Of a stretch of 18,966 nt of DNA, positions 2,106 through 15,261 are shown piece by piece. The notes beneath the pieces were generated by a model. The model did not search any database and was not told where the DNA came from. It worked only from the letters and a program-made list of their open reading frames with translations. Each line of letters opens with the position of its first letter. Position 1 is the stretch's first letter. The position numbers were made by a program, and so were the translations under genes. This stretch comes from Candidatus Fermentibacterota bacterium (GTDB lineage: Bacteria; JAFGKV01): assembly GCA_030620115.1 (NCBI GenBank), contig JAUXFG010000070.1:1-18966 (forward strand), read 5' to 3'.

Positions 2106-2129
2106 GGACGCGACGGAGCGCGTCCCTCC
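2106..2129 (+). repeat. Hairpin element, copy 1 (loop ACGGAG, tail CTCC)
   Basis: A perfect 7-bp stem, GGACGCG (2106-2112) with CGCGTCC (2119-2125), encloses the six-base loop ACGGAG (2113-2118) and is followed by CTCCAT. The loop GGAG can pair with the tail CTCC, which would make a small H-type pseudoknot. A second copy at 14977-15000 keeps loop and tail but has a different, still fully paired stem. Function unknown; it may be a mobile REP-like element. Confidence 0.75.
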
Positions 2130-14736: not shown

Positions 14737-14798
14737 GCTGACTATTGAACACATAAGAACGTGACTATTCTCTGATCCACAACATCATCGGAATTGGG

Positions 14799-14928
14799 AT
14801 CGGAATCGCCATCACTATCGAAATCAGCCACACCGTTGGGCTTGCCTTCATCAAACATCCAGATTCTCGTGACTGAGAGCCATGTGATCATTCCTCAATT
14901 CGATTCCGATTCCGATAGCGATTCCGAT
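14799..14928. repeat. Inverted arms of ATCGGAATCG-type repeat
   Basis: ATCGGAATCG at 14799-14808 has exact reverse complements (CGATTCCGAT) at 14901-14910 and 14919-14928, and the arms are extended by imperfect copies of the 6-bp unit ATTCCG/CGGAAT. The roughly 90-bp centre shows no further pattern. Read as codons, the right arm gives alternating Ser-Asp, a look I associate with interspersed repeats rather than protein. Confidence 0.6.
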
Positions 14929-14976
14929 GAAGGAAAAATGCATTAGGCCTCTTGTGTCACCGTATGGAGCATCAAC

Positions 14977-15000
14977 GGCCATGACGGAGCATGGCCCTCC
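14977..15000 (+). repeat. Hairpin element, copy 2 (loop ACGGAG, tail CTCC)
   Basis: Stem GGCCATG (14977-14983) pairs perfectly with CATGGCC (14990-14996) around loop ACGGAG (14984-14989), followed by CTCCAT. Loop, tail and orientation equal those of the copy at 2106-2129, while stem pairs 3, 5 and 6 differ by compensatory changes (A-T to C-G, G-C to A-T, C-G to T-A). Both copies also share an upstream ACGGC. Confidence 0.75.
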
Positions 15001-15022
15001 ATCATCCTCACTTGGACGTTGA

Positions 15023-15036
15023 ATGTTCGATGTTGG
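15023..15036. repeat. AACATCGAACATCC-type repeat, inverted copy
   Basis: ATGTTCGATGTTGG is the exact reverse complement of the 14-base core at 1982-1995. Similar flanking units (GACGTTGA before, ATGTTTGA after) extend the likeness over about 30 bases. Confidence 0.65.
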
Positions 15037-15077
15037 ATGTTTGACCAAAGCGAATCCGATTTTCTCCTTCATGTCTC

Positions 15078-15170
15078 GCCCTGTCAGGGCTGAGGGCATT
15101 TTGTTACCCAGCCCCAGGGTTACGCCCTATCGGGCTCGCCCTGGGCTGGTATGTGAAGCCCCTTCGGGGC
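15078..15170. repeat. Cluster of G+C-rich palindromes (REP-like)
   Basis: Three hairpins lie in series. The first is GCCCTG-T-CAGGGC (15078-15090). The second is nested: outer arms CAGCCCCAGGG (15109-15119) and CCCTGGGCTG (15139-15148) with one bulged C, around inner GCCC-TATC-GGGC (15124-15135). The third is GCCCC-TTC-GGGGC (15158-15170). The arrangement looks like a REP/BIME-type intergenic element. It is downstream of the minus-strand aldo/keto reductase gene and could act as an RNA 3'-end structure, but no T-tract identifies a terminator. Confidence 0.65.
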
Positions 15171-15261
15171 ACACTAGCCGTCTTCAATAGGTTGGAAACT
15201 TCACAAACGAGTCAGGTTTTGCAACGACGTTTGTGGATTGGCTGCGAGGCGATGCCGGTTT

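Follow-up and report, generated by a model that had tools for sequence, protein, structure and literature searches.

The two short hairpins found in the window (the whole stretch of 18,966 nucleotides analyzed here) are, in our reading, REPs, that is, half-units of REPINs (inverted REP pairs), belonging to a GGAG-tagged family spread by its cognate RAYT (probability about 0.88). This identity rests on copy number, on stem covariation, on the presence of dimers, on the intergenic location of the copies, on a RAYT of their own placed between arrays of the same repeat, and on the correlation of the tag with the RAYT lineage and with residue 101. The GGAG hairpins are a new tag variant of REPs, which brings with it a testable recognition rule; what is new here is that the GGAG tag follows the RAYT lineage and that the tag is tracked by one RAYT position, the equivalent of H101 of E. 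coli, which is a reported tag-contact residue. The two copies and the repeated units that embed them are as follows:

2106-2129, + strand: REP copy 1 in iREP notation, with stem GGACGCG/CGCGTCC at 2106-2112 and 2119-2125, loop ACGGAG at 2113-2118, tail CTCC at 2126-2129
2101-2188, no strand assigned: repeat unit embedding copy 1 (the hairpin with its tag-side flank), with 81-84% identity to the dimer-flanking copies L040 and L018
14977-15000, + strand: REP copy 2; stem GGCCATG/CATGGCC, loop ACGGAG at 14984-14989, tail CTCC at 14997-15000
14961-15044, no strand assigned: repeat unit embedding copy 2 (what remains of the dimer spacer, the hairpin and the 3' flank CATCATCCTCACTT..GACGTTGAATG), with about 91% identity to L013, L045, L042 and L052

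In REP orientation, the unit is 5'-GGAG-stem-loop-stem; read on the - strand, copy 1 is 5'-GGAG-GGACGCG-CTCCGT-CGCGTCC. The sequence-only reading had described perfect 7-bp stems with three compensated differences and an identical loop ACGGAG and tail CTCCAT, and all of this was confirmed at both sites: the stems differ at pairs 3, 5 and 6, every difference being compensated, and AT directly follows the CTCC tail in both copies. The pattern ACGGAG-N7-CTCC occurs twice in the window, and two sites were reached in 0 of 200 shuffles (mean 0.05). The predicted single-stranded DNA fold of the two copies is a plain hairpin (-8.1 and -6.7 kcal/mol), and both copies are intergenic, lying between genes of the same direction. 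The partner hairpin of a head-to-head dimer is absent at both of them; the window copies are single REPs remaining from decayed dimers.

The genome to which the window belongs (G000) consists of 4.1 Mb in 296 contigs, of which the window is contig 170, and its phylum is represented by three genomes in the collection. The search of this whole genome for the motif, which the sequence-only reading had proposed, returned about 141 exact matches to ACGGAG-N7-CTCC (65+76) vs 24 (16+8) for a reversed control, so that the outcome set against that reading, namely few other copies or copies with unpaired stems, is not what was found. Stem types, dimers and placement were described from part of these copies. 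The dominant stems are GGCCATG and GGACGCG, accompanied by compensated variants such as GGCCACG/CGTGGCC, GGACGTG/CACGTCC and GGACGAC/GTCGTCC, and the GGAG foot is present in nearly all copies of a list that favoured CTCC tails. Inverted pairs are frequent, with CTCC (GGAG in REP orientation) either inside and a spacer of about 28-30 nt, or outside and a spacer of 18-21 nt; head-to-head dimers are found, for instance, in L052 (49(-)/91(+)), L027, L043, L036 and L045. Although stop-to-stop ORFs of at least 180 codons cover 72% of the bases in the same loci, just 6 of the 56 distinct copies fall inside them. The features by which REPs and REPINs are recognized are thus found together in this genome, that is, a short palindrome in high copy, mostly extragenic, forming head-to-head dimers and flanking a RAYT gene with the same repeats. 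That gene lies outside the window:

G000:C160:20652-21128: intact cognate RAYT of 159 aa with the motifs DHVH and YVRHNP

Four hairpins precede it and seven lie within about 420 bases after it. The protein exceeds the cut-off of NCBIfam NF047646 (REP_Tyr_transpos; 93.3 bits vs 80) and matches the solved structure of E. coli TnpAREP, 4er8 (E 5e-6). The search of the same genome with Pfam PF01797 missed this RAYT, and the four genes that it did find (L009, L010, L011 and L012) were rejected as cognate, no ACGGAG hairpins being present nearby. One of them, L011/L213 (G000:C200:12757-13167), encodes a RAYT resembling that of E. coli, has palindromes GTAGGTCGGGTTAGCGCAGCGTAACCCGAC with a GTAG tag on its flanks and represents a second REPtron, that is, a RAYT gene with flanking REPs. 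L009 (G000:C187) and L010 (G000:C118) are long Y1 transposases of the C-terminal type (324-331 aa), the latter being bounded by inverted ends with GGGGTCAG (ctggggtcagatctttaatgtt ... aacattaaagatctgacccc) that resemble the TIR-associated type; L012 is a transposase fragment matching PF01797.

Concerning the stems, we analyzed loci picked solely for encoding the transposase. In these loci, 46 of 63 ACGGAG-N7-CTCC sites have a fully paired 7-bp stem, which comes in 13 different perfect versions, and the loop-tail motif was never found there with a spacing of 4-6 or 8-10. Among 52 distinct 24-mers, chosen without regard to their stems, double-sided changes were observed at six of the seven stem pairs. 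The covariation score is 0.373 vs 0.096 in shuffles (not reached in any of 500) and no more than 0.092 with the partner slid; this supports the earlier idea of a selection for structure over stem sequence.

The same idea had been extended to an H-type pseudoknot, in which the loop GGAG would pair with the CTCC that follows the stem; in a broader form, loops and tags might pair between hairpins, such pairing being the selected feature. The commonest loop in REP orientation, CTCCGT, is indeed complementary to the tag, and four consecutive pairs with GGAG (G-T allowed) are possible for 17 of 34 distinct loops vs 25% in shuffled ones; however, this excess (50% vs 25%) is inflated, since related loops share descent, and shared descent may explain the modest excess. 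No double-sided change in the loop-tail helix was found among the 52 distinct copies, in which the tail was fixed by the way the copies were chosen. Moreover, families with the same CTCC tail have different loops (ACGAAG, ACAAAG, GGGGAC, and also 5-nt and 3-nt loops). In REP orientation, the GGAG group includes, besides CTCCGT, also CTTCGT, CTTTGT, CTTGT, GTCCC, TGTCA, CGTTG and 3-nt loops, and many GGAG families have loops that could not pair with the tag (GGCCC, CGTTG, TGTCA, CGCCG). Loops are also common to both tags: CTCTGT stands beside GTAG in L231, and CCCT beside GT[AG]G in L284 and L291 and beside GGAG in L286 and L296. Finally, zero nucleotides remain as a linker to cross the 7-bp stem, which makes an intramolecular pseudoknot sterically unlikely. 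Because loops vary, loop and tail never covary, and tags switch under one and the same loop, structure and tag are what is selected, and the loop-tail pseudoknot is not the conserved feature. The pseudoknot was hence rejected on the basis of pair counting and of the loop/tag comparison, and we consider pairing of loops and tags, within or between hairpins, extremely improbable as the selected feature.

Compensated stem changes together with a fixed-looking loop might also be expected from an RNA element (a terminator, a stability element, a small RNA or a riboswitch-like pseudoknot), the covariation then reflecting RNA folding; besides, GTAG REPs, once spread, can act in mRNA (PMC3733652). However, Rfam covariance models gave no match in the window at gathering score, and copy 1 has no terminator-like T run or terminator-like site, on which ground its reading as a terminator was rejected. 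The copies point in either direction and also form inverted pairs, they flank a transposase gene of their own, some of them even lying inside RAYT genes, and it is the tag that represents the conserved part, as in RAYT substrates. An RNA element is thus very unlikely, and the architecture of the repeat, its copy number, the dimers and the RAYT between arrays point to REPs, supporting the option of a REP-type mobile unit already raised by the sequence-only reading; mobility itself would be expected by analogy with known REPs.

Which part of the unit might be recognized by the RAYT is suggested by the comparison of RAYTs carrying different tags. Hairpins repeated next to RAYT genes were therefore sought de novo, with neither tag nor loop specified, and this retrieved the GGAG foot beside most RAYTs close to that of G000 and GTAG-type feet beside its next relatives; ten close RAYTs have no clear flanking repeat. 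Overall, GGAG is the foot beside 50 of 77 compared RAYTs, the tags having been sought without favouring it. In E. coli TnpAREP, residues W94, Q95, E100, H101 and R104 have been discussed as interacting with GTAG (PMC6006769). Once RAYTs were aligned to 4er8 (the residue of the RAYT of G000 equivalent to position 101 being T115), H101 was found in 11 of 12 GTAG-flanked proteins of the first set; the 34 GGAG-flanked proteins in which the residue is present have T, R or V there. Among further RAYTs outside this first count, GT[AG]G is the tag of each of the 15 decided H101 proteins and GGAG goes with T (7), R (7) or S (2), two distant R101 proteins having GT[AG]G; three loci of this further set repeat earlier ones and were left out of the tree. 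For the 77 RAYTs as a whole, whose counts are not independent because the proteins are related, GTAG corresponds to 24 H and 3 R, and GGAG to 28 T, 18 R, 2 S, 1 V, one missing residue and no H. Against the correlation stand three distant R101 RAYTs that carry GTAG-type tags.

The tree of these proteins needs three tag changes, at least two of which are forced by well-supported branches. The main GGAG clade embeds 41 RAYTs (98/99), and a second GGAG clade of seven, with R101, lies beside H101/GTAG sisters (98/92); since these seven retain F99 like their GTAG relatives, it is position 101, and not 99, that follows the tag. The distant L195 and L196 (G013), with S101 and TTGGAGT-tagged hairpins, are a case in which the GGAG tag may have arisen independently. 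The relation between tag and residue 101 remains a correlation across related proteins, short of proof. On balance, we lean slightly toward a joint reading, according to which GGAG REPtrons constitute an unreported tag class and residue 101 would set the second base of the tag (H selecting T, as in GTAG; T, R or S allowing G, as in GGAG), with two to three switches, each accompanied by the loss of H101.

The same hairpins were retrieved by pattern scan in MAGs of Verrucomicrobia, Lentisphaerae, Kiritimatiellae, Planctomycetes and Desulfobacterales, and also in those of Syntrophaceae, Zixibacteria, Eisenbacteria, Armatimonadetes and Chloroflexi, some single matches of the scan being possibly due to contamination. 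RAYT genes lie near such hairpins in other genomes too, and RAYTs flanked by GGAG hairpins of their own were found in Lentisphaerae, Kiritimatiellae, Phycisphaerae, Desulfobacterales and rumen genomes, with up to 13 GGAG hairpins per true RAYT locus vs 0.18 in shuffled flanks; across these GGAG REPtrons, stems are very diverse and compensated. The phylum of G030 was sampled with 240 genomes; at least 50 copies of the motif were found in 7 of 39 genomes with a RAYT (match at E <= 1e-30, a set that includes some GTAG-type RAYTs) vs 4 of 201 without (Fisher p 3.6e-4), a link which is understated because families with different loops escape the exact motif. The other two genomes of the phylum of the window have no close RAYT and motif counts near background. 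No close RAYT was detectable in some copy-rich genomes (G001, G003, G012 and G017), which suggests that some families persist after the loss of the RAYT or that the gene lies outside the MAG. No relative of the RAYT was found in viral contigs, and plasmid records gave just matches of 25-28%, in two cyanobacterial records.

Copy-rich genomes missing a close RAYT might also be expected if the hairpins were double-strand cruciforms or protein sites (bound, for instance, by a nucleoid or repair protein) that recombination spreads, the RAYT being a mere passenger; several proteins have been shown to bind REPs and BIMEs (PMC2817692). However, the tag tracks both the RAYT lineage and residue 101 through two to three switches, which would be unexpected for a passenger, and we regard this explanation as highly improbable in comparison with REPs spread by their RAYT.

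As to the mechanism, single-strand binding, cutting and mobility are suggested by the work on GTAG REPs (PMC8266576, PMC6006769). In its active form, the element is probably single-stranded DNA, 5'-GGAG-GGNNNNN-CTCCGT-NNNNNCC. The RAYT, an HUH/tyrosine single-strand endonuclease, would bind the exposed hairpin and its GGAG foot, for instance at the replication fork, making contact with the foot and the loop as in GTAG REPs, and might then cleave the strand at a dinucleotide that the foot tag specifies. In GTAG REPs, this dinucleotide is selected by cross-pairing with bases 3-4 of the tag and is CT for ..AG (PMC8266576); since GGAG retains A3G4, cutting at CT is predicted for the GGAG family as well. 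The strand would finally be rejoined elsewhere, and inverted pairs might in this way spread between genes.

REPs have previously been sorted into the GTAG and CGTC superfamilies (PMC3733652). With GTAG REPs/REPINs and their RAYT/TnpAREP (PMC3733652, PMC2817692, PMC3116915, PMC6006769), the hairpins described here share a palindrome of 20-40 nt bearing a tetranucleotide at one of its feet, an arrangement in inverted head-to-head dimers, high copy number, intergenic location, compensated stem variants and a RAYT gene flanked by the repeats. They differ in the foot, which is GGAG and not GT[AG]G, in the 7-bp stems starting GG..CC with a 6-nt loop of the CTCCGT type (in the family of the window), and in the T, R or S that the GGAG RAYT lineage has where E. 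coli has H101. CGTC REPs are also short palindromes forming head-to-head dimers, and their foot is at times altered to CCTC (PMC3733652); however, they have stems of 8-9 bp with AT first pairs, loops of 4-5 nt, a CCA tail and no flanking transposase (PMC3733652), whereas the family described here combines a GC-rich 7-bp stem with the tag GGAG and with a RAYT. A REPtron foot other than GT[AG]G is known from TnpAY1 class 3 and from the "atypical" REPs of subclass 2.6 (PMC6006769), but the foot of class 3 is CnGA and its Y-motif Y....Q, unlike the GGAG foot and the Y-motif YVRxNP (class 2 type) observed here, the RAYT of G000 carrying DHVH and YVRHNP. In IS200/IS605 elements (IS608, ISDra2), an HUH/tyrosine enzyme likewise reads a single-strand hairpin with a tetranucleotide guide at its foot; here, by contrast, non-autonomous repeats far outnumber the single cognate RAYT gene, and no multi-copy autonomous element with these hairpin ends was found. 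In the openly searchable full texts, the feet GTAG, GTGG, CGTC and CnGA are found and a GGAG class is not described, nor did literature on GGAG with RAYT or REPIN, and on REPs in Lentisphaerae/Verrucomicrobia, describe one.

GGAG REPs would represent a third class of tag, served by a RAYT lineage of its own, extending from Verrucomicrobiota and Planctomycetes to Desulfobacterales and accounting for an abundant repeat in many environmental genomes; no transposase is known for CGTC repeats. The coupling of changes in the letters of the tag with changes at one tag-contact residue might be regarded as a natural experiment, and the RAYT reading of REPs becomes directly testable by a residue swap.

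Other repeats surround the two hairpins in the window:

1976-2015, no strand assigned: accessory repeat AAACGTCCAACATCGAACATCCAACATCGAAGTGAGGATG, a frequent neighbour of the REPs of this genome, containing reiterated AACATCGAACATCCAACATCGAA
15003-15042, no strand assigned: inverted copy of the accessory repeat (90% complementary), immediately after REP copy 2

Just ahead of copy 2, positions 14785-14930 harbor imperfect inverted repeats built from ATTCCGATTCCGAT-type units, with arms of 29 nt that are 83% complementary. Past the same copy, the stretch 15070-15175 is rich in palindromes (CCCTGTCAGGGCTGAGGGC ... GCCCCTTCGGGGC) and resembles a further repeat family.
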